The notes under the pieces: model-generated
Told to the model about the DNA's origin: nothing
Seen by the model: the letters and a program-made list of their open reading frames with translations, nothing else
Database searches by the model: none
Virus record (IMG/VR): IMGVR_UViG_3300030116_004741
Span: 2,507-31,759 of that record
Reading direction: 5' to 3' (one strand)
DNA from: a virus
DNA: 29,253 nucleotides
Shown here: piece by piece, positions 9,382 through 25,907 of the stretch
Layout of the letters: the number at the start of each line of letters is the position of its first letter
Numbering within the stretch: the first letter of the stretch is position 1
Program-made: the position numbers and the translations under genes

Positions 9382-10974
9382 TTAGAATTCCAGAATGATT
9401 TTAACGTCTTCTTTTTGTCTTACGTTTCTAGTGACCTCTTTTCTATTATCAATGTAAATTACTTCACCAGTCTTTTTATTTATTTCAGAATCAGCTAGAC
9501 CATTTTTAAACTCAACTCCTAAGTTGACATTTTTACTACCAACAGTTGTTGTTATACCTGAAAAATTTTGATCTACTGATCCTGTAAACACAGTTGAACC
9601 ACTATTTAATTTACAGAAAATTTCATCTCCACTAGATTTAAAAGACAATTGACCCGCAGTAGCGTCCATATTTGTATAATCAGTGGTGTCGAACAATGTA
9701 GGATTTAAATTTAAAGTTCTGTCTTGAATATATTTCAAAACAAAAGTATCCTGATCATATGATGCAATTGTTCCTGATGCAATTGTCGTGTCTGATAATC
9801 TTTGAGTAATACCCAAACCAATTAATCCATCATATGTAGTACCAGCTGGAGTGATTCCAGAACTTAATTTTATAGATGATAGAGATGAGAATTGTGCTGT
9901 TGTTAAAATACCTGATGTAGGTTTCTCTGGATTTTTAATTATTCCTACTTGACCAAAGTGAGTATCAGTTGGAAAATCCTTTGTAGAATCGTCAAAACGA
10001 GAATAAACTAAAACTTTATCAGCACCAAGTTCAGTGTAAATATCAAAACCATGACCCTTGGATGGAGGAATAATTGGTACTAAGTTAGCACGTTGATCTT
10101 CAGTGCCATTAAAAGATATACCTTCTAAATCAACCATTGCAAAAGTATAACCAGATCCACCAGCAGTGACTACAACATTTGTAATTTTTTTACCATCAAC
10201 TGTAACTAATGCCCTAGCACCAGTACCATCTCCAAGAATATTACATGAATATGAACCATCAGTATAGTTAGCACCTTGATTTTTTATATAAATTGTTTTT
10301 ATTTGGTTCTTATTAATATTAGAGTCTCCTGCTTCTCTTACTGCTTGTATTTGAGGATCTGTTGATGTAGACCAATCACTTGGCAAAACAATATATTCAA
10401 TAGAGTCAAATTTTACAACATCACTAGGATTAACTGTAAATAGATATTTCCATATGTAAGGATCCTGTGTTCCAGCAGCAGCTGGTTCCAAATCAGTGAA
10501 TGTTGGTTCATCTAAAGACTCAACAGCTTTTGCATCTGCTGTTCCTGGTTCACCAAAACTACCATTATCTAAACAAATATAAACTTTAAATTCAGAAGTT
10601 ATTACATAATAATTTGTTTTATATAAACTTCCACTCTTTGAAGTAGGTGCTTCATTAACAACTGGTTGATAGTCATGTCGATACATGTCATAGGACTGAT
10701 TAGCAGTCCATGTGTGTTTTTTAACAACTCTTCGAAGATTTGCGGAAGTTATTTTTTTACCGAATAGAGAGGTATTTCTATACTGAGATAAGTATTGCTG
10801 ATTATCAACAGGACTTGGAGTATTTTCATCCCAGTTTGTAGTTCTTCCGAATCCAACACTATTTGGATCTGGTAGTCCTAAAAATACATAATAAGAATTA
10901 TCAGAACCTAATACAGAGTCTACAAAATTACCTGCGTTCGCTATTCTAAATTGATCTGTTACTACAGCTGGCAT
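9382..10974 (-). CDS. 8: Baseplate wedge protein gp8, enlarged (530 residues)
   Basis: Baseplate wedge subunit; in T4 a gp8 dimer joins the wedge with gp7 and gp10. The N-terminus (VTDQFRIANAGNFVDSV, then YYVFLGLPDPN) and SYDMYRHDY near residue 95 fit gp8 of T4-like phages. The region PYIWKYLFTVNPSDVVKFD followed by EYIVLPSDW near 175-200 corresponds to T4 EYLFEIPPDV and EYIVVPW. The C-terminus KTGEVIYIDNRKEVTR followed by VKIILEF matches T4 SGEMIYMENRPPI and INILFTF. T4 gp8 has 334 residues; the extra ~200 are mostly in the middle and include two copies of the G-x-x-Y beta repeat (QGANYTDG near 235, GGSGYTFA near 272) that also fills the giant neighbour. A perfect late promoter lies 18 bases before the ATG; no clear Shine-Dalgarno is visible. 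Confidence 0.9.
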   Translation of the reverse strand: MPAVVTDQFRIANAGNFVDSVLGSDNSYYVFLGLPDPNSVGFGRTTNWDENTPSPVDNQQYLSQYRNTSLFGKKITSANLRRVVKKHTWTANQSYDMYRHDYQPVVNEAPTSKSGSLYKTNYYVITSEFKVYICLDNGSFGEPGTADAKAVESLDEPTFTDLEPAAAGTQDPYIWKYLFTVNPSDVVKFDSIEYIVLPSDWSTSTDPQIQAVREAGDSNINKNQIKTIYIKNQGANYTDGSYSCNILGDGTGARALVTVDGKKITNVVVTAGGSGYTFAMVDLEGISFNGTEDQRANLVPIIPPSKGHGFDIYTELGADKVLVYSRFDDSTKDFPTDTHFGQVGIIKNPEKPTSGILTTAQFSSLSSIKLSSGITPAGTTYDGLIGLGITQRLSDTTIASGTIASYDQDTFVLKYIQDRTLNLNPTLFDTTDYTNMDATAGQLSFKSSGDEIFCKLNSGSTVFTGSVDQNFSGITTTVGSKNVNLGVEFKNGLADSEINKKTGEVIYIDNRKEVTRNVRQKEDVKIILEF

Positions 10975-11025: not shown

Positions 11026-14000
11026 TCAATTTTGAGCAAGTGGTTTTTCTAATATAGAACCAGTCTGATCGAATGTTTTATCTCCACCAGTTCTCTTAAT
11101 TGTTGGGAATGTTGATATACCAACTCCCGTTGTTATTCCAACAGTATTACCAGTCACTCCAATTGATATTGGATTTGATCCTCGTACAAAACCACTTATT
11201 TTACCAAGTGAATATTTACCAACTGGAATTGCTGCACTACCTGTGCTACTCAAACCAGCATGAACGGTTCCTGAGTGAATTAAGCATGTAATAACCCCAA
11301 CCCTTGCTGGACTTGTTGCACTTGTATGCATTCCTGCCACAACGTAAATGTTATCAGCAAATGAAACACCAAGTCCCACAGTATCAGTATCAACACCACT
11401 GGTATTAATAGAAATAACACCAGACCCACAACGAGTATCAAAGATATAAATTGGACTTCCAATATTTATTGGTGCAAATGTGGATAAAATATCACCTTGA
11501 ATATCGAATTTAATTCCTAATTTACCTGATAATGTTGTTGTTCCTATACCAGTGATAATTCCAGTATTTGTAGTAATTCCCAATCCACTACCTTCAGTTG
11601 CAGTTGATAAATTTTCAAATGTAGTAGAATAAGTGAATGGACTTGATATTAAAACTTGAGGTGCTATGGTATATCCTAAACCTGGATTATTTGGAACAAT
11701 GGATGTAATAGTGCCACCAGCACCAATGGTTGCGGTAGCTGTTGCAGTGCTTCCAACTCCAACAATTGGATTCCCAACATCTATTTTACCCAAATTAGAT
11801 TGTACAGTAACTGGTGGTGCTGATAGTTTGACAGTAGGTGCAACTGTATAACCAGAACCAAAATTAGAGGTGCTAAATCCTGTTACCGTTCCTGCTACAG
11901 AAATAGTGGCAGTTGCCTCAGCTGTTGTAAAATCAATTTGTTCTCTCTTAGAGAGTGAGAACCCTAATTTAGGTGCAGTATCACCTTCATAATTAAATAT
12001 GTCTGTACTATCAACAAATAAAGTAGTATCGGAAGCTGATAAATCACTAATGACTTTTGCTATAGGTGTAATTCTTGGTTCAAGACTTCTTCTCTGTTTG
12101 GAAACTAAGTTTTTATTGATTACCATATCTTCTTTTTGTTTAATTAAAGATATAGGACGGAAAACATTATCATTTATACCCTTTCCAAGATAAACATTTG
12201 TTTGTATCTTTCTAGATGTATTTAAATTAAGCACTGTTCTCTTATCTTGAGGTTTAACAGTTCCAACTCCAGCTATTTGAACTTCATCACCAGCTTCAAT
12301 AGTTAAAGTTTCCGCAAGATTCACCACAGAATCTTCACCAGTGGTTCCTTTATAGAATAATATGGTAACATCATCTTCCTCCAATAATGGTTCTGCAAAG
12401 GTTATCAGATTACCACCAACAATCCTATAACCTGAAACAGGTTCTTGAATCACTCCATTTATGACAACTAAGAATACATCTTCAATATTAACATTTGGAT
12501 TCAGTGATTGATTTAATTCCACACTTACCAATTGAGCATTGACAAATAGTGAAAAACTACGTTGTACTCCGTTTTGAAGACCTTTAATTGAGTCAATATA
12601 ATCAAAGTCACCAAATTGCCATAGTGCAAAAGCATCACTATAGATTTTATCTATAGTTAACCTAGATCTTTCAATAAGATTACTCAAACCTCTTTGAGTA
12701 ACTAATCCAACTGGTTCTACAACATCTCCCTCTTTAAATGCAAATCCTTTATTGACAATTTCATATTCAGATACTTCAAACATTGTTGACCCTATACCAG
12801 TCACTGGTTTTACTATCGCATTAACTCTCAAATCTGTTCCTGTCTCTGATGTTAATCCATCTGCACGTCTTGAAATACCTCTAACTGATAAATTCGAGTA
12901 TGATGGTTCAGAAACAAATATTTGTGGATCTTGATAATCAGTTCCTCCACCACCTACAATTGTAAATGCCAATGTTCCACCAACACCTACTGATGCAGTA
13001 ACGGTTCCTCCAGTTCCAACATTAACTCCAACATTAACACTGAATTTATTGTCATCTATTTTTGTGACTGTTAATACACCATTGTTTAATGCTGATGTAT
13101 TAACAGATGCTGGATCTGTTGATCTCGGATATACGTGAGTAGTTTCAAAATTATCTCTTGAACATGAGAAAGATAAACTTGCATCATCTATTGTAATAGT
13201 ATTGGAATTAGTTAATCCATGGTTAGGAACTGTAAGAATCAATATTCCAGTTGCAGGAGTATATGAAGCATTTGTAGGAGTTAACTGTGAACCACCTGTT
13301 ACATTGATTGCATTTGTATTTGCAGATATGAAACGATGCTCATATCCAAGATCTTGAACAGTAACTCCAATTGAAACTATATCATCATTATATCCAGATC
13401 CAAATGTTAGATTAGGGAAGAATGGATATGCTTCACCAGCAGTTGCACCTGCACCAGTGTAATCAAATGTTCCATCAGTTTTTCCAACACTGATACCAAA
13501 AATATTTGTTGCACCTACAGATACAATTTCAAATGGTGATGTTTTTAATGATAAAGATGGACTGAAACCTATATTATTAACTAATACAAAATCATTTGAA
13601 TTTTTAAATCTATGTTCTCCTTTTGTTCTTATTGACATTATTCCAGTAGAACCATTATAAACTGCATTTTCAACTACCAAATCAGATCCACTAAATGCTA
13701 CACCAACAATCTCTGTTATTGATCCACCTACATTCACAAGTGGTTTAACTACAGCAGGAACTAAAGGAGCATATCCTAATCCATTTATAGTATTTCCTAT
13801 TGATATGGGTATACCACCTCTTGGTAATTCATTAGTATTAATATTATTTGAGGTAAATACATCACCATTACTTGATGTGATACCTGTAAATATAACAGTC
13901 GTTACACCAGTTGCACCACTACCACTCTCAACTAATTTAAAGTTTTTATTTGGATTAAAGTCTGTAGATGGTGATTGGAATATTCCATTTATAAACAATA

Positions 14001-17000
14001 TACCAGATCCACCAGTTGTTCCAATTCCAATCGTATTTGCACCACCAACTCTTAAAGTAAAACTTGATGAAACTCCTGTAAATTGATCTGATATATCATC
14101 ATATATGGCATTTGATTCATAATTATTTCTAAGATATACCCTTCCAGAAAACTTAGATGTTGCAATATCTAAGTCATTTATATCTTTATTTTTACTTATA
14201 TCACCTCTTGGTGGTTTGGTAAAGAATATATCTTTACCTACAATATTATATGATCCTCTTAGTCTACTAACTTCTGTTCCATCTGAATGTATTGTTGATA
14301 TTGTTCCAACAAATCCTCTAGTAACTTGAACAGAATTGAATGTTCCAGCTGTTGCAACAGGACCTCCACCTGTAGTGGCAAAACCAACTCGAACAACTTC
14401 CATAAGTTCATCATCTACTTTTAAAACATCAGTTACAGAGATTGTAGATATTCCACTTAAATGAATTATAGTTGTAGCTGCTCCAATCTGTGATCCCACA
14501 TTACTATTCAATTCATGTGTCACATCACTTCTTATTAATGGATATTGTGCTACATCATCAATTGTAATCAAAGTTTTTTCATTTGATTTTGTCATACTGA
14601 ATTCATGAGCATTACCCTCACCAGGACTCATGAAGGTAACAGCTGTTCCTGCTTTTACAGTTGATATAAAGAATGAATCTTTATCAGGATTTACCACAAA
14701 TACTTTTGAAGGTAATGTATGAATACCAACTCCAGATAATTTATATTGAAGTGCTGTAGATCCAACTCCTACAAAAGTTGATTTAGGTTCATAAACTAAT
14801 TCTTCATTGGGTCTAAAGAAATGATTTTCTATTGTAAATTTACCAGTTCCTAAATTCAATACTGAAGAATTTGATGGATTGAAAGATTTACCAAATATTG
14901 GTATGGAATTAACTTTAGGTGTAAACTGTGTTCTTTCTATTCTGTTACCACTTATGGAATTGTATAATTCAATAGAAACATTTTCAGTGACAACACCATA
15001 ATTCAAATCTTCTGGGATATTTACCGTATCCATTTTTGTGTAGAAACACTGATTGAATGAAACTACTGTTGATACTCCAACTTCATTATCAGGGAAAAAT
15101 TCAGTTAAAAAATTACCTCCAGACAATCTAGCACCAAAGGTTCCTAAACCAGCTGCTGAATCATATTCAGATGTTTTATCTTTTGTAAGTGATAATGATC
15201 CAGACGGTTGTACATATCCATCCACTCCATCGTGTATGGATAACACCTCATAAATTGCTTTAGATGAACCTATACTTACCTCAACAGTAGATTTTACAGC
15301 ATTAAAGAGTAATGAATTTAATTTGGTTAGTGTTGAAATACCAGTATTGCTAGTTGATACACCTGAATATATTAATGTTCTCTCAGATTCATCTTGTTGA
15401 TCTATTGATTTAAATCTATATGTTCCGTCTTCAACACCAGTAGTTCCTATACCAATTATTTTTGATTTTAGTTTTAATCCTGTTGAACCATTGTTTTCAT
15501 AACTTAAAATTAAATTACCACCAGATACTGACGAAGTAACAATTCCTAATTTATTTAATGACAGAGGAGTATTATCAGAAGATACATATCTTTCTGATAG
15601 GAAAGTATCAGTATTTAAATGAGATACAAATGTTTCTACCAGATTACTTTCAACTTGAACACTATCCACTACATGTATCATTGCATATACAGATTCAAAG
15701 TTAGTCACAGGGAAAGCAGCAATAGTGGTGGCGGTTCCAGCAGGGCAGATTTGAATTTTAGAAGTAAGATTAATTGGTCCTATAGAAGTAGTTCCAACAC
15801 CTATAGAAGTAGTGTTAAATTGTGAGGATGCTATTTTTAAATCATAATCCACATTATTTGTTGGATCAGGACTTGTGCTAGGTGTGAACCTTAATTTTGT
15901 TATTTCAGTTAATTCATTTTCATTTAAAGAATATCCAACAAAATTATCATTCTCACCATTTAGTAGATCAGTTCCTAAATTGTTTAAATTAGATTTTTGT
16001 ACTAAGAAATTATTATTACCATCACCTAATAATAATAATTCTGATATTTCTATTTTATTAAACAGTGAAGTATTACTCTTAGTTACTATTAAAAGATTAT
16101 TTAATAATTCTGATTGATTATCAGTCGGAAATTCAAATATATTTAAGAAATTATCAGGATTACCTTGAAGGTTAGTAAATTCATTACTAATATCATCTAT
16201 TGTAAGAACATCATTTGTTTTACAATCGATATAATCTGTCAATCTTATATCTTTGAATAGGATAAGTCTTCCAGTATCATCAAAAACTTCAGTATCAACA
16301 ACTAAATCTATATCTTTTATCTCATCAACTCGTTTTTCATCAAATAAATCAACTATAATATTAAGACCACTAGTTACACCAACTGTAGAGGATGTTGTTG
16401 AAGTTATGCCAGTATCAGCAAAATTCTTCATACCACTAGTGTGTAAAATATTATTAACAGGAGTTTTTAAATCATCCCACTCAATTGGACTCTGAATTGA
16501 GTAAGACATATTTTGATAATAATCATTATCAGGTGTTACTTGAAAATCTTCGTTTAATTTACCTACACTATCATTCCATCCAAGATTTTTCAATATAGAG
16601 ACATCTGTTTTAAATCTAGCAGTATTTCCAACAATTTTTGATATTTCACATTGAACACCTGAAATTTTACCTGTAAGAATATCTCCAGACTTTAATTTAC
16701 CAGCATTTAGTATTTTTAATTTTCCTACATTTATTCTTGTAATTTCAAAATAACCACTTATTTCAAAACCATTTCTAGAAACAGTTACTGTCTCACCTAG
16801 TATAAAATCAGATTGTTTTTCAGATATGAAGAAACTAGGATAATCTGATTCATTAATGATATTTGTAAAAGTTGTTGGAGTTGTTTGTGCTAGACCAGTC
16901 CTGACAGGATTATCAGGAGTTGAAAATTCTGATAAATCAATCGTAACAACTCCTTGACCATTTACATCAGGATCATAATTAGAAACTTTAAGCAACTTAA

Positions 17001-20000
17001 ATCCATAGTCACTTGAATTAAATCCAGACTCTGTATTGGGATTTACAACACCAGTGGTTCCTATACCTACTATACCTTCTATATAAACTCTATCATTAAT
17101 TTTGAAAGGATTAACTGGAAATATAGGATTTGGTGTTGCTATTGTACATGTATATGATGATCCAGCATTTGTTGATTCTATTTTAGTGATTTCAATACCA
17201 TTAGTATTATTAACTGTTCTTAGAACCACTGAATCTGATGGTAAACCTTTTGGTACCTCGACTATATCTACTGATTGAATACTATTTCCTAACATAACAG
17301 GTTCTAAGAACCCACTGTTTATTTGTTCACCAGAATTATCATTAACAATTATAATGTCAGGTGGAGTAATATAATTTGATCCTCCATCAGTTACGCTAAC
17401 AATACCTAAAGTAGATGTTTTTACTATATTTACATTTGAAGGTATGAGACTTTCTGGTTCTAAAGTTTTATCTGAAGAGTATTCAAAACCCTCATTGATA
17501 ATTCTAACTTTCTCAATATTTCCAATACTAGTTGATTTTGGAACTATTACAGCACCTGTTCCCCCAGATGTTGCACCAAATCCAACAAAATTAGGTAATT
17601 TTTTATAGTTTGACCCTTTAGATGTAATTCTTACTTTACTTATTGTTCCTTCTGTATTTTTAGAATTAGTAGTGTAACTTAATGAACTTGTTTCTGTGCT
17701 ACCATAAGATAATTTTTCTGGCACATCTTTTATAAAGAAACTGAATGTAGAGACTCCCGTTCCGATTACTTTATATTCATTACTGTAAATACTATCAACA
17801 AAAGATATTTTTGAGTAATCTTTAACATCAAAATCAGATGTTCCTATGGTTCCTGATTTTTCTAAATTGTAAAATAATACATTTGGAATACTAGTACCAT
17901 ATCCTATCGATAATTTAGCTCCAGATAATCCTGCTGTACCTACTCCCGAAATATTAAAGATTGAAGATTCACCATCAGATATGAAATTATTTTTAAATTT
18001 ATTATCATAATATATTTTAAATTCATATCCACTTAATGAAGAGTCTGAAAGATTAAAAACTAAATTATTATTATTAATTGATGTAATACTAGGATTAATT
18101 AATGATATAGTTTGAGAATTTCCACCAGTAGATGCAATACCTACAATATTAGGTATTAATTTTGATAAATCAAATGTAGTTTCACATAATTTAAAATTAT
18201 TGTCATCAATTTTATATACAAAATAATCTTTATTTTCAAGTCCCTCTGGTAAAAGATCAGATGAATATTTTACTTTATCACCAGTTTGTAGTCCATGTTT
18301 AGTAATATTGAGTGAGTTTGATGCGGGAATAACATTTGTAGAAGTAAATCCTATAGGATTTATTAAGATTTGACCTGTTACAGTATCTCTAATAACCCTT
18401 ACATCAGTTGAAGTTCCTATACCCACTGATAAATTTGGTTGAACAGTTAAGGATATTTTATCACCAGTGGATAATTTATGAGATTCAGTTGTAGTGACAG
18501 ATGATTTAATTCTCTCTACCTTTGATGTAATTTCATCAAATACAGTTTCAAATTGGTATTTACCACGTTGATTTTCTGCAACATTTGATGTTACATTTGA
18601 TATATTTACAATATAAACTTCTGAAGTACCAACCCCTGTTTTAATACCAATATGATTACTATCTTTACTTACGGCATATACAGTTTCTGGTAAGGTAAAA
18701 CTACTTGCTCCATTATCTGAACTTACTAATAAACTTTCGTTAACGGCTCCTGTAGGAGTGGAAAATTTAAGTTTTTGATTTGTTTTGAATGGGTGATTAT
18801 TAATAAAAATTTGTTTTTTAGGAAGGTTTCTTGTAATGTCTTTACCAGCAAAATCAAATGTCCTTGTTAAATCCTCTCCATCTTCGGTTCCCACTCCAAC
18901 AGTTTCTAATGGGTTGAAAAATACTTTTTGGTTTAATTCTGTATCAAAGAAAGAAATATTTTTGGAAATTGTAAATTTATTAGGTAGATAATTGACAATA
19001 GATCCTGCAGGATGAGTTGTTCCTTCAGAACTATCAGCAGCCCGTTCAACAGTAAGAATATTTTCGTTTCCGTAAATATTAAGAATTTTTAGAGTTTCTG
19101 TTCCTATTCCAATACTACTTCCAATTGTTACCGATGTTGGTATATCAGAAACAAATATTTCAGTAGATAAACCTGCTGACGGAGATCCAGTAATAGTTGA
19201 AATTGTTTTGGAAGAAAAAGTTGTTACACCAATTGAAAATGAATCATTCAATATAGAAATATCTGTTGATAATCCTGATATTTTAACGATATCACCAGTT
19301 TCAAAAATGTGATTATTTGGAGTGACAACAGTTACATTTTGTTCTGACCATAAAATAACAGAATCTGTTATTTCAATAATTTCTGTTTCAATTTTACTAA
19401 CAGTTTTACCTTCAACATCAGAAATAGCAGCTTCGAAACCTTCACCATCTTGGTCATCAAATATTAAAGGTTCACCCACTTTATAATTTTGTCCACCTTC
19501 AACAATGTCAAAATCAGTAACTGTTCCAGTTGATAATGACTCAATTTCTATTTTTTGATTTTCAATTTCATTTGTTTCAACTAAAAAATCGTTATTTGCA
19601 AATTCTTCTGATACTTTGTATGGAAAAGTGTTTCTCAATAAACCACTTAAATTAAAATCAAAAGTTGTTTGATCATTATCAATTATAAAATTATCTTCAA
19701 TTAGTTCAGACCTATAATTATCACCTATAAAATAAGGGAATGTTGGGACATTAAGATCATCTACTGTTGCATGATAAGCATATACACCATTTGGAAACTC
19801 TTTTGTTTTTTCAAATCTTCCGTTATACACGTCTAAATTCGCATCAGATGCGTTAAATTTATGATCCTCAAGGAAAGTCCCCACCTCAAATCCAGAGGGT
19901 CTATCCTCCACGTTAGAGGCATCTACGGTGTATCCTGATTTTAATCTAATAATAGTTCCTGGATTATTAACAGAATTTTCTGGATTTTTAGATCCAAAAG

Positions 20001-23000
20001 GACCATATATTGGATTACCATCATAAGCCCAACCTATTATATTACTAACATTGTCTGGACTTCCCGCATAATCTCCAAATAGACTGGTGCTATATCCAGT
20101 TACAGAATACTTTAATTTATTACTAGAATCACGTAATTGTTGATAATCGGGAGAATTTACTTTAAAATTATTAAGAGTGAGTGATCTAACTTCAGAATCA
20201 AAAAATGCATTCTGACCTGCTGATTTTACATTAATTGATGTATCAGTAGAATATCCAATACCAGCACTTACAATTACAACATCAGAAATAACAGAATCAT
20301 TTGTATTTGTGTTTATTCCAATAACAGGTTTTAACTTAGCACCTGCACCAAGTCCTGTAGGATCTACAATTTCAAGATCAGGTGCTGAAAAATATTCTTG
20401 TCCCCCAAAATCAATATTTACGTCAATTATTTGACCATTTGAAATGACAGGTTTTAGAACAGCATTTTTACCATTTTTTAAAGTTATTAATGGTTTTTTA
20501 TGATTATTAATTATAGTTGATCCATATCCTGTACCTGTTTCATAAAGATATGATTGTATAATTGAACCTCTTGCTTTTACTGTTAATTCAATTTCTGTAG
20601 GAACTGCACTTTCTGATGCTACACCAACAGCAGAAAATCCTACAAAAGCTTTTATATCAGGGTATTTGAATACTTGATATCCTGCTCCAATTGAAGATAG
20701 TGAAACAAATTTACCTCTTTCCAAATTAGATGTAATAGTTCCACCGATTCCAGCATTTGCTAATTTGAAAGAATTATCATCTTGTTTTAAAACATAATAT
20801 GAAGTTAGGGTGTTTAATCCTACAATTGATTCTAGATTTGCAATATCAGTTATACCGTCTCCAAGTTCAGTAGAATATTCTATTAAGTCTCCAGTTTCAA
20901 ATCCATGATTATTAAAATTAATTTCATTAAATGACGTTGATATTCCTGAAGTTTTTACTCTTAATTTTCTATTTGTGTATCCACTACCTTGATTAATTAC
21001 TTTTACATCTGTTAATGTTTTTCTTAAACCTATTTTGAATGAATGTGTTCCTGATGCTGTTTCATTACTATTAGCAAAATTTACAGTATTAATTCCTGCT
21101 ACCAAATCATCAAGAGTTTCAAATATTCTAATTACCCTAGAATTACGAACATCTGCAAAATATAATGCATTATCAAGTAAAGTTCTAGTACCATCTCCAA
21201 TTTTAATTTGAGCATTAACTCCAGAATCATATATTATTGGTTCATTTTGAGAAAAATTGTGGTCAGATTCAAATTCAATGAATCCCATATTACTAGAAGA
21301 AGAAGTTGTTAAACCACCCAAATTAGTTGTTGGTCTAGCATCAAAAAATTCTTGTCTAAATCTTGTTCCTATAATAGGTTCTAATACACATCCACTACCA
21401 TTTCCACCAGTTACACCTATTGAAATAATTTTGTCAACATCAAAATTCTGTGGGTCTACAAATACATCTAAAATTTTACCAGTAACTACAGGTTGAACTA
21501 AAGCAGTTTGTCCAATACCATTTGATACTGATATTTTTGGTAAATTTACAACATCAAAATTATCACCACCACTTAACGTATCAACTTTTGTTAGTGGTCC
21601 AAAAAACATCTTTTCATTTGATTTGTAGTTAGATATTTCAACACCATTAATCAACATTCCAGTTTCACCTATGGGTGTTGCATTACTACCACTATTAGTA
21701 ATTTTTTGCTCTAGAGGAAATTTTTTAATTAATTTTTGAGCACCTATTATTGAGGATTTTTGATTTTCTAAGACTAAATTATGAACTCCATCATTTATAC
21801 TTTGTGTAAAAGTTAATTTTTTATCATCTTCAATGCTTCCTGCTGATCCATATAATTCAATACTACTAGCAGTAATTTCTTTAACATAATAAACTCCCGT
21901 ATCCAATCCAACAAGAGTATCACCATTTATAGTGCTATAAAATACTCTATCTCCTGTTTTAAATGAGTGATTACTAGCAAATTCTATCGTAGAAAAACTA
22001 GTTTTATCCAAACTGGCACCACCAAGTATGGCTCCATCTGGTTGAACTGGCACTGGAGGATTACCACTTACCTTTGATAAATCAAAATTTTTATTATTAA
22101 TGCTTATATTAATTTCTTTTGTAAAATTAGTAGGTACATTTGATAAAGAAATAAGATTAGATGGAAGTGAGTTTGATGTTACATATGCTTCTTTATCTTT
22201 AAAATATACATTTTGAATATCTGAAATTACAACATCATTTCCAAATTCTAATGGTGTTCCACTACTTTTTGCCTTATTTAACTTCTTTCTAATTTTATAA
22301 TTTCTACTGGTGTCAAAAGTAAATCCACTAGTATTGGTTAGGAAAATTCTACTTTGCGATACTTCATTAACTACTTCATTTACAATATTTTTTATGACTG
22401 CAGGTTTATCCCATAAAATAACATTACTATCACGATCAACAATTTGTACAGCATCTCCAATTTTTAAACTGGACCTATCAACCATACTTAAAACTGTAAC
22501 AATATCATCGTTTTCTCCTGAATTATCAATAATTTCATTTATAAAATATGATGATGAGGTATTATAAATCCATGAATTTGCAAATATTTCTTTGTAAGTT
22601 TTATTATCAAAATTATCATGATCATTAGATAAATTTTCAACTTTATCACCAATTGATTTAACTGAAATTATTTCACCTTCTTCAACATCTACTTGTTCAG
22701 TTTGTTCAAATTCTGATAATACACCAGTAAGTCTAAGAGTTACTTTTTTATCAGAATCTCCATCTTCAAATCCAAAATAAGTTATATCCGATCTTATATT
22801 TTCAATAGGTAATATTGGACTGTTAAATGAGTCTGTGCTAGTTGCCGTACAACCTAAAAATTGGTTAACCGTTTTATCAGTATATGAAATTACATTACTA
22901 TTAGTTATGATTGTGCCTGTAGTACCAAATCCAACTGTAGAATCGACAGTTATAACACTAGCCCCTGCTGATACATTTTCTATAGCTTTGGAGTTAGGAA

Positions 23001-23973
23001 CAACTATAAAATCATCCCCTACATCGGAACCCTCATCATATCCAACAAACAATGCAATTTTATAATATGTTGTTATCCCACTCAATCCAGAATCAACTCT
23101 TTGGAAAGGTTCAATTTCTGATATTGATGCATTAATATCAGGATCTATATCACTTCTGAATAAAGATTGCCCTACTAAACCTTTTAGTAAATTTTTTGCT
23201 GCAAGATTAGATGTATTTTCTTCTATTAATTCACCTACACAAATTCTACGTCTAACATAATTTGCAGATGATGGTTTGATTAATCTTTCTTCTAAGTTTA
23301 ATATATTAGAATCTACACCATATAAAACATTAAATAAAATCCTAAATGATTCATTTGTTCCCTTTGTCTGATATAAAGAACGTGCTTCACCAATAAATGT
23401 TCCAACATCAAGTTTAGGTTGAAAATTAGTTTCTTCTAATCCAGGTAAGAAAGTTTTTTTAAATTTTTTATAAAATTCTTTTAAAAATAAAGAACTTAAG
23501 TTTTGAATCCTAGATGCTCCTTCATGCTCTGCTGCAGATGAGGAGTTAAATACTAAATCTTCTTTATTTGTATCTGAATGATAACTAGTAATACCACTAA
23601 ATCCACGAACACATCCAGTAAAAGAATCTGTAGTAATTCCAGTGTAAGTGATTATTTCATCATCTATCTTTAATAAACCATATTCATTTGGAAATCCTTT
23701 TGTACTAGTAACATTAATTGTTTCGTCACCAACAGTGGTAACACCGACTGTAGTGGAACTATCAACTATAACTTCTGGTGTTAAAGAATTAAAATCTAGA
23801 TATTTGCTTAAATTCTCTGATATATCTGCTATACCACCTTGATACTCTTGAGAAATATAATATTGCTTTAAAAAATCAACAGTCCTAGGACTCTCATCCT
23901 TAATGAAATTAGGAAGTTGATTTGATAGGATATCTTGAATTTTTATTTTACTTACAATCCCTGTTTCTATCAT
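11026..23973 (-). CDS. 7: Giant baseplate wedge protein in the gp7 position, 4315 residues
   Basis: One uninterrupted frame between gp6 and gp8, where T4 has gene 7 (about 1030 residues). Near residue 195-215 it reads ARSLYQTKGTNESFRILFNV, which resembles T4 gp7 SRSYDFYSTKG and FLFKVLY, normally near the gp7 C-terminus; the preceding region (NFIKDESPRTVDFLKQYY at 22, FLKEFYKKFKKTFLPG at 165) also fits a gp7-like helical domain. The remaining ~4000 residues are Gly/Ser/Thr/Ile-rich beta repeats: about ten H-x-F/L-x-T-G-D units, about fifteen G-x-G-Y units, four E-I/M..RG..H modules and two INGxxQ modules (LFINGIFQSP near 3330, VVINGVIQEP near 3830). A YHYH domain spans about 1285-1420. No signal peptide or catalytic site is evident. 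The ATG overlaps the gp6 stop (ATGA). It presumably forms the wedge core plus a long extension towards fibres. The gp7 assignment is positional plus the short similarity. Confidence 0.75.
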   Translation of the reverse strand: MIETGIVSKIKIQDILSNQLPNFIKDESPRTVDFLKQYYISQEYQGGIADISENLSKYLDFNSLTPEVIVDSSTTVGVTTVGDETINVTSTKGFPNEYGLLKIDDEIITYTGITTDSFTGCVRGFSGITSYHSDTNKEDLVFNSSSAAEHEGASRIQNLSSLFLKEFYKKFKKTFLPGLEETNFQPKLDVGTFIGEARSLYQTKGTNESFRILFNVLYGVDSNILNLEERLIKPSSANYVRRRICVGELIEENTSNLAAKNLLKGLVGQSLFRSDIDPDINASISEIEPFQRVDSGLSGITTYYKIALFVGYDEGSDVGDDFIVVPNSKAIENVSAGASVITVDSTVGFGTTGTIITNSNVISYTDKTVNQFLGCTATSTDSFNSPILPIENIRSDITYFGFEDGDSDKKVTLRLTGVLSEFEQTEQVDVEEGEIISVKSIGDKVENLSNDHDNFDNKTYKEIFANSWIYNTSSSYFINEIIDNSGENDDIVTVLSMVDRSSLKIGDAVQIVDRDSNVILWDKPAVIKNIVNEVVNEVSQSRIFLTNTSGFTFDTSRNYKIRKKLNKAKSSGTPLEFGNDVVISDIQNVYFKDKEAYVTSNSLPSNLISLSNVPTNFTKEINISINNKNFDLSKVSGNPPVPVQPDGAILGGASLDKTSFSTIEFASNHSFKTGDRVFYSTINGDTLVGLDTGVYYVKEITASSIELYGSAGSIEDDKKLTFTQSINDGVHNLVLENQKSSIIGAQKLIKKFPLEQKITNSGSNATPIGETGMLINGVEISNYKSNEKMFFGPLTKVDTLSGGDNFDVVNLPKISVSNGIGQTALVQPVVTGKILDVFVDPQNFDVDKIISIGVTGGNGSGCVLEPIIGTRFRQEFFDARPTTNLGGLTTSSSSNMGFIEFESDHNFSQNEPIIYDSGVNAQIKIGDGTRTLLDNALYFADVRNSRVIRIFETLDDLVAGINTVNFANSNETASGTHSFKIGLRKTLTDVKVINQGSGYTNRKLRVKTSGISTSFNEINFNNHGFETGDLIEYSTELGDGITDIANLESIVGLNTLTSYYVLKQDDNSFKLANAGIGGTITSNLERGKFVSLSSIGAGYQVFKYPDIKAFVGFSAVGVASESAVPTEIELTVKARGSIIQSYLYETGTGYGSTIINNHKKPLITLKNGKNAVLKPVISNGQIIDVNIDFGGQEYFSAPDLEIVDPTGLGAGAKLKPVIGINTNTNDSVISDVVIVSAGIGYSTDTSINVKSAGQNAFFDSEVRSLTLNNFKVNSPDYQQLRDSSNKLKYSVTGYSTSLFGDYAGSPDNVSNIIGWAYDGNPIYGPFGSKNPENSVNNPGTIIRLKSGYTVDASNVEDRPSGFEVGTFLEDHKFNASDANLDVYNGRFEKTKEFPNGVYAYHATVDDLNVPTFPYFIGDNYRSELIEDNFIIDNDQTTFDFNLSGLLRNTFPYKVSEEFANNDFLVETNEIENQKIEIESLSTGTVTDFDIVEGGQNYKVGEPLIFDDQDGEGFEAAISDVEGKTVSKIETEIIEITDSVILWSEQNVTVVTPNNHIFETGDIVKISGLSTDISILNDSFSIGVTTFSSKTISTITGSPSAGLSTEIFVSDIPTSVTIGSSIGIGTETLKILNIYGNENILTVERAADSSEGTTHPAGSIVNYLPNKFTISKNISFFDTELNQKVFFNPLETVGVGTEDGEDLTRTFDFAGKDITRNLPKKQIFINNHPFKTNQKLKFSTPTGAVNESLLVSSDNGASSFTLPETVYAVSKDSNHIGIKTGVGTSEVYIVNISNVTSNVAENQRGKYQFETVFDEITSKVERIKSSVTTTESHKLSTGDKISLTVQPNLSVGIGTSTDVRVIRDTVTGQILINPIGFTSTNVIPASNSLNITKHGLQTGDKVKYSSDLLPEGLENKDYFVYKIDDNNFKLCETTFDLSKLIPNIVGIASTGGNSQTISLINPSITSINNNNLVFNLSDSSLSGYEFKIYYDNKFKNNFISDGESSIFNISGVGTAGLSGAKLSIGYGTSIPNVLFYNLEKSGTIGTSDFDVKDYSKISFVDSIYSNEYKVIGTGVSTFSFFIKDVPEKLSYGSTETSSLSYTTNSKNTEGTISKVRITSKGSNYKKLPNFVGFGATSGGTGAVIVPKSTSIGNIEKVRIINEGFEYSSDKTLEPESLIPSNVNIVKTSTLGIVSVTDGGSNYITPPDIIIVNDNSGEQINSGFLEPVMLGNSIQSVDIVEVPKGLPSDSVVLRTVNNTNGIEITKIESTNAGSSYTCTIATPNPIFPVNPFKINDRVYIEGIVGIGTTGVVNPNTESGFNSSDYGFKLLKVSNYDPDVNGQGVVTIDLSEFSTPDNPVRTGLAQTTPTTFTNIINESDYPSFFISEKQSDFILGETVTVSRNGFEISGYFEITRINVGKLKILNAGKLKSGDILTGKISGVQCEISKIVGNTARFKTDVSILKNLGWNDSVGKLNEDFQVTPDNDYYQNMSYSIQSPIEWDDLKTPVNNILHTSGMKNFADTGITSTTSSTVGVTSGLNIIVDLFDEKRVDEIKDIDLVVDTEVFDDTGRLILFKDIRLTDYIDCKTNDVLTIDDISNEFTNLQGNPDNFLNIFEFPTDNQSELLNNLLIVTKSNTSLFNKIEISELLLLGDGNNNFLVQKSNLNNLGTDLLNGENDNFVGYSLNENELTEITKLRFTPSTSPDPTNNVDYDLKIASSQFNTTSIGVGTTSIGPINLTSKIQICPAGTATTIAAFPVTNFESVYAMIHVVDSVQVESNLVETFVSHLNTDTFLSERYVSSDNTPLSLNKLGIVTSSVSGGNLILSYENNGSTGLKLKSKIIGIGTTGVEDGTYRFKSIDQQDESERTLIYSGVSTSNTGISTLTKLNSLLFNAVKSTVEVSIGSSKAIYEVLSIHDGVDGYVQPSGSLSLTKDKTSEYDSAAGLGTFGARLSGGNFLTEFFPDNEVGVSTVVSFNQCFYTKMDTVNIPEDLNYGVVTENVSIELYNSISGNRIERTQFTPKVNSIPIFGKSFNPSNSSVLNLGTGKFTIENHFFRPNEELVYEPKSTFVGVGSTALQYKLSGVGIHTLPSKVFVVNPDKDSFFISTVKAGTAVTFMSPGEGNAHEFSMTKSNEKTLITIDDVAQYPLIRSDVTHELNSNVGSQIGAATTIIHLSGISTISVTDVLKVDDELMEVVRVGFATTGGGPVATAGTFNSVQVTRGFVGTISTIHSDGTEVSRLRGSYNIVGKDIFFTKPPRGDISKNKDINDLDIATSKFSGRVYLRNNYESNAIYDDISDQFTGVSSSFTLRVGGANTIGIGTTGGSGILFINGIFQSPSTDFNPNKNFKLVESGSGATGVTTVIFTGITSSNGDVFTSNNINTNELPRGGIPISIGNTINGLGYAPLVPAVVKPLVNVGGSITEIVGVAFSGSDLVVENAVYNGSTGIMSIRTKGEHRFKNSNDFVLVNNIGFSPSLSLKTSPFEIVSVGATNIFGISVGKTDGTFDYTGAGATAGEAYPFFPNLTFGSGYNDDIVSIGVTVQDLGYEHRFISANTNAINVTGGSQLTPTNASYTPATGILILTVPNHGLTNSNTITIDDASLSFSCSRDNFETTHVYPRSTDPASVNTSALNNGVLTVTKIDDNKFSVNVGVNVGTGGTVTASVGVGGTLAFTIVGGGGTDYQDPQIFVSEPSYSNLSVRGISRRADGLTSETGTDLRVNAIVKPVTGIGSTMFEVSEYEIVNKGFAFKEGDVVEPVGLVTQRGLSNLIERSRLTIDKIYSDAFALWQFGDFDYIDSIKGLQNGVQRSFSLFVNAQLVSVELNQSLNPNVNIEDVFLVVINGVIQEPVSGYRIVGGNLITFAEPLLEEDDVTILFYKGTTGEDSVVNLAETLTIEAGDEVQIAGVGTVKPQDKRTVLNLNTSRKIQTNVYLGKGINDNVFRPISLIKQKEDMVINKNLVSKQRRSLEPRITPIAKVISDLSASDTTLFVDSTDIFNYEGDTAPKLGFSLSKREQIDFTTAEATATISVAGTVTGFSTSNFGSGYTVAPTVKLSAPPVTVQSNLGKIDVGNPIVGVGSTATATATIGAGGTITSIVPNNPGLGYTIAPQVLISSPFTYSTTFENLSTATEGSGLGITTNTGIITGIGTTTLSGKLGIKFDIQGDILSTFAPINIGSPIYIFDTRCGSGVISINTSGVDTDTVGLGVSFADNIYVVAGMHTSATSPARVGVITCLIHSGTVHAGLSSTGSAAIPVGKYSLGKISGFVRGSNPISIGVTGNTVGITTGVGISTFPTIKRTGGDKTFDQTGSILEKPLAQN
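13205..22000 (-). repeat. Protein-level repeat family H-x-F/L-x-T-G-D in the giant gene
   Basis: About ten dispersed units share a His, a hydrophobic residue, then T-G-D or similar and a beta-strand: NHSFKTGDRVFY (~671), DHNFSQNEPIIY (~908), NHGFETGDLIEY (~1024), NHIFETGDIVKI (~1557), NHPFKTNQKLKF (~1728), SHKLSTGDKISL (~1833), KHGLQTGDKVKY (~1896), NHFFRPNEELVY (~3054), EHRFKNSNDFVL (~3454) and NHGLTNSNTITI (~3586). They are usually followed by a YYV or Y-V-type strand and an E/K-L element. Spacing is irregular, so this is a divergent domain repeat rather than a DNA tandem repeat. Confidence 0.75.
19720..20110 (-). other. YHYH domain inside the giant wedge protein
   Basis: Residues about 1285-1420 of the 4315-residue protein contain IIGWAYDGNPIYGPFG, then NLDVYNGRFEKTKEFPNG followed directly by VYAYHATVDD and FPYFIGDNY. 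This order (DGxPIYGP, LDxxNGRF, P-x-GxYxYH, FPYxxG) is the signature of the YHYH domain, found in bacterial secreted or surface proteins and possibly metal- or ligand-binding. The first His of the usual YHYH is replaced (YAYH). Its role in a baseplate is unknown. Confidence 0.78.
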
Positions 23974-25907
23974 GTTCTAATTATTTGTCCGTTTGGGTAA
24001 CTTGATGAATAAAAATCTCTTGTGAATTGAACTCCAGAAACTTCATCACCAGACGATATAACATCTCTAACCATATTTAGAGAACTATTTGAGATGTCTA
24101 ATGACACATACAAATCTTTTAACCCAACTACGTCATTTGATTCTGGAAAAGCTTGAATTTCAATGATATTATTTGGTTTTGTAGTAGATAATATGTTTAT
24201 TGTTGAAAGATTTACTTCACCTTTAATATAATCTATTGATCCTGCCGAAGATACAATATTTCGAATTGTTCCATCACCTAATACTTTAATTATTCTCAAA
24301 ACTCCCGTTTTAAGATCAGAATTTGGAATATCTGACAAATATACTACTCCTGATGTTCCTAAAATGGTAAAACCAGTTGATTTAATGTTATATCCGTTTG
24401 GATCAACGTAAAATCTATTACCAAAACATAATTCATATTGAGCAAACTTATTTATGGATACCTGTAAATTTCTTCTCATTCTAATTTTTGTAATATTTGA
24501 AGTAATTCCTTGATTTGTATCATCAATGACCTTAAGAAGTTTACTATATTTCAATCTTCCACCAAATTTATTCAAATTTATCGATTTTGAGTAGTCTGTT
24601 AAGGATTTTGTAACACTTGTCTTTAATTCTTCTGCAGTAGAAACAAAAGAACTATTATAATAGATGTTTGAATCAAGTTCAATGTATAATATTTTTAAAT
24701 CTACAATTCTTTGGTTGATTCCTGATATTGAATACTGTTTTAACTTGGATAAAATTTGACTTTTAGAAAAATCAGATACTAAATTACCATTTTTTGGTTT
24801 TATACTGATTGCAACTGTTCCAAACTCAGGAGGATCAAGTTCTTCTCCCCCAATTACTGAAACTGACTCTGTATTTGGATAAATTTTCTTAATTATTGCC
24901 TCATAATCCCTTGCAGTGACTGCACGATTCTGTGATGAATATGAAAGTGGGGAATAGTACTTGATAGAATCTAATGTTTCAATATCTGAACCATTTTGAG
25001 ACTTTAAAATTGTAGATACAGTGGAACCTACAAGATTTGCAGAAATACCATCTTCCCTTGTTAATTTTCCTGAGAAAACAAAAAGTTGAGCATCGTTTCC
25101 ATCAGCACCATCAGTCGTAATATATCTAACGTTTATCTCATCACCATCTTCTCCTGTACCAGTACCTAATTTTTTACCAAAATATCCATCTCCAAACTTT
25201 AATTCATACCTTTCATCTTGAACTTCCTTTATTAAGAAGATTTTTGAAGTTGAATCGACAGTTATAATGTCATCCACGAGTGTATATTCCGTTCCTTTTC
25301 CAGCAGTTCCTGCTGCTTTTACATTTACAACAATTTTAGAGGTATCTATTGAAGGATTATCTAAAATAAATCTCTGATCAAGTGACCCATCATATAAAAA
25401 TCTACGTTCAAGGTAAGTTCCTTGAAAAATACTAATGTTTTCAAACGTTGCTATTTTTTGATTTGGATTACTATCAGGTGCATTTGGATCAGTTTGAGTT
25501 AAAACTGTAATTGGTTGAGTAATTGCAAATGTATACGTCTCATTATCAACGTCTCCAGTGCACACTATACCTGGTTCTAAGGTCAATGTATCAGTATTAT
25601 CACTAACAGTAACATTAATCGTTATTTGTGCGTTTGCTGCCGTTTTAGACCGTGGTGTGTATCCAATATTTGAAGATAATGACACCACATTTTCTCTTAA
25701 AGTTGCAGAATCTAGAAAAGATTCATTCACAACCATGTTTGAGTTGAATGCGGTGATATAAGTATTGTATGCTAACGTGTCAATTAAGACAGAAAAGTTC
25801 GAACCATCAAAATCAAAGTCCGTAAAACTGGAATTTGCACGAAGATAGTCCTTAATTGATGTTTTTATCTGATCGAAATCAAGATTTGTGAAATTTGAAA
25901 AAGGCAT
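23970..25907 (-). CDS. 6: Baseplate wedge protein gp6
   Basis: Central baseplate wedge subunit; in T4 gp6 dimers form the continuous ring that ties wedges together. Length (645) is close to T4 gp6 (660). The N-terminus FTNLDFDQIKTSIKDYL, SNFSVLIDTLAYNTYITAFN and ESFLDSATLRENVVSL is the standard gp6 opening in T4-like phages, and residues ~315-360 (YSSQNRAVTARDYEAIIKKI, then YPNTESVSVIGGEE, FGTVAISIKP) are the conserved baseplate-J-like core. The C-terminal part contains IDYIKGEVNL, also usual. Its ATG lies one base after the gp25 stop with AAGG as Shine-Dalgarno inside the gp25 end, and its stop overlaps the giant gene's start by four bases. It is therefore the middle gene of the gp25-gp6-gp7-like wedge operon. 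Confidence 0.95.
   Translation of the reverse strand: MPFSNFTNLDFDQIKTSIKDYLRANSSFTDFDFDGSNFSVLIDTLAYNTYITAFNSNMVVNESFLDSATLRENVVSLSSNIGYTPRSKTAANAQITINVTVSDNTDTLTLEPGIVCTGDVDNETYTFAITQPITVLTQTDPNAPDSNPNQKIATFENISIFQGTYLERRFLYDGSLDQRFILDNPSIDTSKIVVNVKAAGTAGKGTEYTLVDDIITVDSTSKIFLIKEVQDERYELKFGDGYFGKKLGTGTGEDGDEINVRYITTDGADGNDAQLFVFSGKLTREDGISANLVGSTVSTILKSQNGSDIETLDSIKYYSPLSYSSQNRAVTARDYEAIIKKIYPNTESVSVIGGEELDPPEFGTVAISIKPKNGNLVSDFSKSQILSKLKQYSISGINQRIVDLKILYIELDSNIYYNSSFVSTAEELKTSVTKSLTDYSKSINLNKFGGRLKYSKLLKVIDDTNQGITSNITKIRMRRNLQVSINKFAQYELCFGNRFYVDPNGYNIKSTGFTILGTSGVVYLSDIPNSDLKTGVLRIIKVLGDGTIRNIVSSAGSIDYIKGEVNLSTINILSTTKPNNIIEIQAFPESNDVVGLKDLYVSLDISNSSLNMVRDVISSGDEVSGVQFTRDFYSSSYPNGQIIRT

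Follow-up and report, generated by a model that had tools for sequence, protein, structure and literature searches.

YHYH domains are a known component of phage baseplates. In a study of jumbo phages published in 2021, they were found fused to tail and baseplate proteins; from a His triad described as conserved, together with an Asp, the phage YHYH domains were predicted to be Zn hydrolases (PMC7824862). The residues are unnumbered in the text of that paper, and we infer that they correspond to the site formed by an Asp, a His and the name-giving YHYH (the D-H-YHYH site). In the literature searched, no tested function was found for YHYH-family modules, and no description of a wedge protein version missing the name-giving site was found among open-licence papers.

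In full-length bacterial members of the family, the name-giving motif reads as in D-x4-H-V-Q-P-G-G-V-Y-H-Y-H-G and is located about 25 residues upstream of a DG-x-P-x-Y box. D174, H179, Y186, H187, Y188 and H189 (P0002 numbering) were invariant in the close bacterial alignment, which comprised 73 close members and three others, and YHYH was present in all 80 close bacterial loci. A wider sample combined genomes belonging to the same phyla as two of the loci with five handles; here, YHYH was scored by script in 40 of 50 ORFs and a further eight had YHHH or YHSH, giving 48 of 50 with YHxH. The two exceptions were one N-truncated fragment, found in two overlapping loci; one other protein was also counted twice. 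HupE/UreJ-type genes follow the bacterial YHYH genes in three tested neighbourhoods (L093, L128 and L157). Both this occurrence (three of ten tested neighbour proteins) and a sub-threshold match to the zinc-uptake protein ZrgA in one bacterial neighbour protein were considered too thin to serve as functional clues.

The window, that is, the whole 29,253-nucleotide stretch of viral DNA analysed here, belongs to a 42.5-kb virus record in which a single YHYH match was detected. The match falls within a very long ORF flanked by two further wedge genes:

11026..23973, minus strand: giant baseplate wedge protein of 4315 aa in the gp7 position, carrying the YHYH-family module (ORF; PHROG 2885)
23970..25907, minus strand: gp6-like baseplate wedge protein, the upstream neighbour (PF21379, E=3.9e-17)
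9382..10974, minus strand: gp8-like baseplate wedge protein, the downstream neighbour (PF09215, E=2.4e-12; PHROG 438)

Two observations identify the 4315-aa ORF as the giant baseplate wedge protein that occupies the gp7 position in a marine, cyanophage-like virus of the T4 type: its place between gp6 and gp8 in the order gp25-gp6-ORF-gp8, and a full-length match to the PHROG 2885 'baseplate wedge subunit' profile, spanning residues 2-4295. The original prediction had likewise placed the domain in a baseplate wedge protein. An NCBIfam search with the ORF assigned no family. The gp6-like protein shares 63% identity with the wedge protein of Synechococcus phage S-SKS1. Both gp6 and DNA comparison make this phage the closest named relative of the virus among the listed records, from which very near ones may be absent. 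The wedge protein (11026-23973) also contains about seven repeats of the H-x-[FL]-x-T-G-D type, one of which gave a sub-threshold E1_FCCH match (residues 1544-1592), and eight GxGY repeats.

The similarity to the YHYH family is confined to a short part of this protein, in which the following features were located:

19759..20091, minus strand: residues 1295-1405, aligned to PF14240 (YHYH) over profile positions 80-183 of 193 (74.6 bits, E=1.3e-20)
19708..20046, minus strand: the conserved module (residues 1310-1422), a homologue of the YHYH C-terminal half, with columns that are invariant across 81 sequences
20002..20034, minus strand: box 1, GWAYDGNPIYG, residues 1314-1324, with invariant D1318 (100% in 81 sequences)
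19816..19836, minus strand: box 2, LDVYNGR, residues 1380-1386, with L1380, D1381, N1384 and G1385 invariant in the alignment
19765..19794, minus strand: PNGVYAYHAT, residues 1394-1403, aligned with the C-terminal bacterial strand
19723..19740, minus strand: FPYFIG, residues 1412-1417, with P1413, F1415 and G1417 invariant

The peptides on which the prediction had been based were all recovered on the minus strand in the expected order, with GWAYDGNPIYGPFG starting at residue 1314, LDVYNGRF at 1380, PNGVYAYHAT at 1394 and FPYFIG at 1412. The Pfam search that had been proposed as a check was significant, its score lying far above the cut-off of 25 bits. When the module region was isolated, the PF14240 match reached E=9e-23, and E=1.2e-34 was obtained when its profile was compared with one of 65 YHYH sequences of full length, most of them bacterial. 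Judged by these comparisons, the homology is not a product of chance. The expectation of a full YHYH signature thus held for the family relationship but not for its completeness, as profile positions 1-79 remained unmatched; the region 1215-1290 aligned weakly, at low posterior, with the N-terminal half of YHYH in the HMM alignment.

The C-terminal boxes DGxPxY, GxFxxD, LDxxNG, PxGxYxY and PY were all present, and were invariant or nearly so in both the phage and the bacterial alignments. Across the 81 phage sequences, the invariant residues were S1310, I1313, G1314-G1324, R1358, P1359, G1365, F1367, D1370, L1380, D1381, N1384, G1385, G1396, Y1398, Y1400, P1413, F1415 and G1417. The module therefore retains three invariant Asp (D1318, D1370 and D1381) and one invariant Asn (N1384), together with an aromatic and Gly framework. 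Of the His and Asp residues whose conservation in related phages had been put forward for comparison, these Asp were invariant, but the His were not conserved.

The His site itself is absent. YHYH was found in none of the 80 window-type viral loci, which had been chosen for matching the module of the window best and hence sample its own type. No conserved His was found in their upstream region, and 68 of the 80 had no His at all across the 55 upstream residues examined. The counterpart of the bacterial motif was placed as follows:

20095..20109, minus strand: Y1289-S-V-T-G1293, at the position of bacterial YHYHG, with both His absent (HMM alignment, low posterior)

The two His columns are occupied by S/T/G/A and S/V/C/T in the phage alignment. 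The residue-by-residue pairing of Y1289-G1293 with YHYHG is tentative, which does not apply to the absence of the motif. A second, short type of giant wedge protein keeps one His (EYAH, 80 of 80) and likewise has YHYH in none of 80 loci. Weak bacterial relatives displayed the opposite pattern, with the His site kept and little of the C-terminal half matched.

These results change how the sequence YAYH (1398-1401) should be read. It had been interpreted as the name-giving motif with one His replaced; it aligns instead with bacterial IYHYYAT / TYYYAVT in the C-terminal strand, and residue 1401 is F in 36 (44%), H in 30 (37%) and Y in 15 (19%) of the 81 phage sequences. The YHxH motif with its upstream Asp and His is missing from the wedge module as a whole, and with it go the likely ligands for the proposed metal binding. 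The site is also missing from another phage YHYH protein (L176:4001-4888), which has GYY in place of YHYH, possibly as an independent loss.

The remainder of the module is strongly conserved. It shares 63.9% identity with the corresponding region of S-T4 and 56.5% with that of P-SSM2, compared with 38.9% and 40.3% over the whole protein. In the S-T4 comparison, no other window of equal length along the protein equalled the module, while in the P-SSM2 comparison 2.4% of such windows did, part of them overlapping the module. By this measure, few parts of the giant protein are as well conserved as the module. YHYH homologues are also widespread in cyanomyophages, as they occurred in 457 phage records, nearly all of cyanophages. 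The 366 Synechococcus and 61 Cyanophage records compare with 373 and 61 for gp6, these counts being a proxy for presence per gp7 gene, since some records also hold non-wedge YHYH proteins. Other cyanophage wedge-region proteins (L181:27946-31500, L182:26117-30253 and L264-L343) carry long insertions within the YHYH domain or ahead of it, with a type-1-copper-like C-x2-H-x(2-4)-M motif in 41 of 66 cases; Pfam recognised none of those tested as cupredoxins. A YHYH-related protein of Actinomycetia phage DSL-LC01 (L082:1795-3165) carries a cupredoxin-like insert with a sub-threshold Cupredoxin_1 match (E=0.025).

A tree of 62 C-terminal halves, built on 134 columns, midpoint-rooted and with some long branches meeting, grouped the window type with support of 99/93 and joined it with the short type (94/82). 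Both wedge groups were placed among YHxH-bearing sequences. Because the two groups join there, loss of the site in the phage line is likely, though short of proven, compared with the site never having been present.

The AF2 model of the wedge region had a mean pLDDT of 78.3; for residues 101-200 of the piece that was modelled, averages taken over blocks of 10 residues were 86-92. The model of a full-length bacterial member reached 91.5. Searched against a viral structure library, the wedge model gave clear matches of which all those with a domain name were YHYH proteins (best E=1.5e-12), and several top matches carried no name. Foldseek searches of the PDB with the wedge and bacterial models returned nothing at E<=0.001. 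Sequence searches of the PDB likewise gave nothing significant, whether the query was the module, a bacterial member of full length, the phage member with the intact motif, the entire ORF or a profile.

The explanation that we favour, with some confidence, is that marine T4-like phages acquired a module of the YHYH family at an early stage and that it became fixed within their giant wedge protein at the gp7 position, with loss of the D-H-YHYH metal-type site and retention of the C-terminal half. The module would now be a non-catalytic, rigid, beta-rich structural or interaction part of the wedge and would probably maintain a contact between proteins of the baseplate. Its conservation across phages of different hosts is more in keeping with a contact for structure or assembly than with a receptor tip, which would vary. 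For the same reason, the suggested sensor role at the host surface is less favoured than a structural one, as the module is 56-64% identical where the whole protein is 39-40% identical. A fuller version, which we regard as plausible but somewhat doubtful, is that an ancestor of the marine T4-like phages took up a YHYH domain that was once an enzyme or a metal binder, and that this domain, deprived of its metal site, is now an essential wedge part; the same guarded judgement covers its companion proposal that other proteins of some such phages kept the intact site.

What counts against the favoured explanation is the invariance of D1318, D1370, D1381 and N1384, since a site for a cation or a sugar may have been kept. 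The module might accordingly be exposed and bind a conserved surface sugar or cation through its invariant Asp, Asn and aromatic residues, aiding adsorption or triggering. Conservation by itself fits a structural role and the binding of a conserved ligand alike. Receptor-binding parts, however, usually vary, whereas this module is among the most conserved across Prochlorococcus and Synechococcus phages, and its fold has no PDB match; we consider ligand binding unlikely. With the histidines of the proposed metal site gone, the module probably serves as a conserved part for structure or binding and not as an enzyme.

A metal-dependent hydrolase attacking the cell wall during entry, following the proposal in PMC7824862, is far less probable. 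It draws on the Zn2+ site predicted there from the His triad and Asp of phage tail YHYH domains, and on the intact motif in other cyanophage proteins (P0004 in S-ShM2). It does not fit the wedge version because the proposed His/Asp site is missing: the aligned site has no conserved His here or in any of the 80 window-type homologues, which largely refutes the hydrolase role for this version. It is equally improbable that an unrecognised wedge part or a partner subunit supplies the N-terminal half and the metal ligands, so that the site would form again once the baseplate is assembled, since the weak alignment of 1215-1290 with that half and the single EYAH His of the short type stand against an upstream region of low alignment posterior and with no conserved His in the window type.

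The findings bear on a highly abundant group of marine viruses, in which the number of cyanophage records with a YHYH-family module comes close to the number with the core gene gp6. A wedge version without the proposed metal ligands corrects both a reading based on the family name and the published hydrolase prediction as applied to this version, and marks the proteins with an intact motif as those worth assaying as enzymes. If the module is indeed a decayed former domain, the prediction of a Zn hydrolase for baseplate YHYH domains would be wrong for wedge proteins.

In comparison with the known systems, the jumbo-phage domains (PMC7824862) are alike in that a YHYH-family domain is fused to a tail or baseplate protein, and differ in possessing the His triad and Asp, the His being absent in the wedge version. 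SShM2_094 of S-ShM2 (573 aa, annotated as gp7) is similarly a phage YHYH domain adjoining wedge genes, but has a near-full-length domain (profile 7-184), an intact RYHYH and a hydrolase-like C-terminal stretch. In this protein (L181:24940-26661), the stretch shows a resemblance to polyhydroxyalkanoate depolymerases of the short-chain type (NF050058, E=4e-7), with a score that falls far short of the cut-off. The bacterial PF14240 members are significantly homologous and share the box order DG-x-P-x-Y, RP, GxFxxD, LDxxNGR, PxGxYxY and PY, whereas the wedge module has no matched N-terminal half, D-x4-H or YHYH and is embedded in a 4315-aa structural protein. The closest counterparts are P-SSM2 gp7 and the S-T4 gp7-position protein (Kyanoviridae), which follow gp25 and gp6 and carry the same module without YHYH; the P-SSM2 gene order gp25-gp6-gp7-gp8 is that of the window. 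These proteins differ from the wedge protein in length (5195 aa and 4749 aa, respectively) and share 39-40% overall identity with it.
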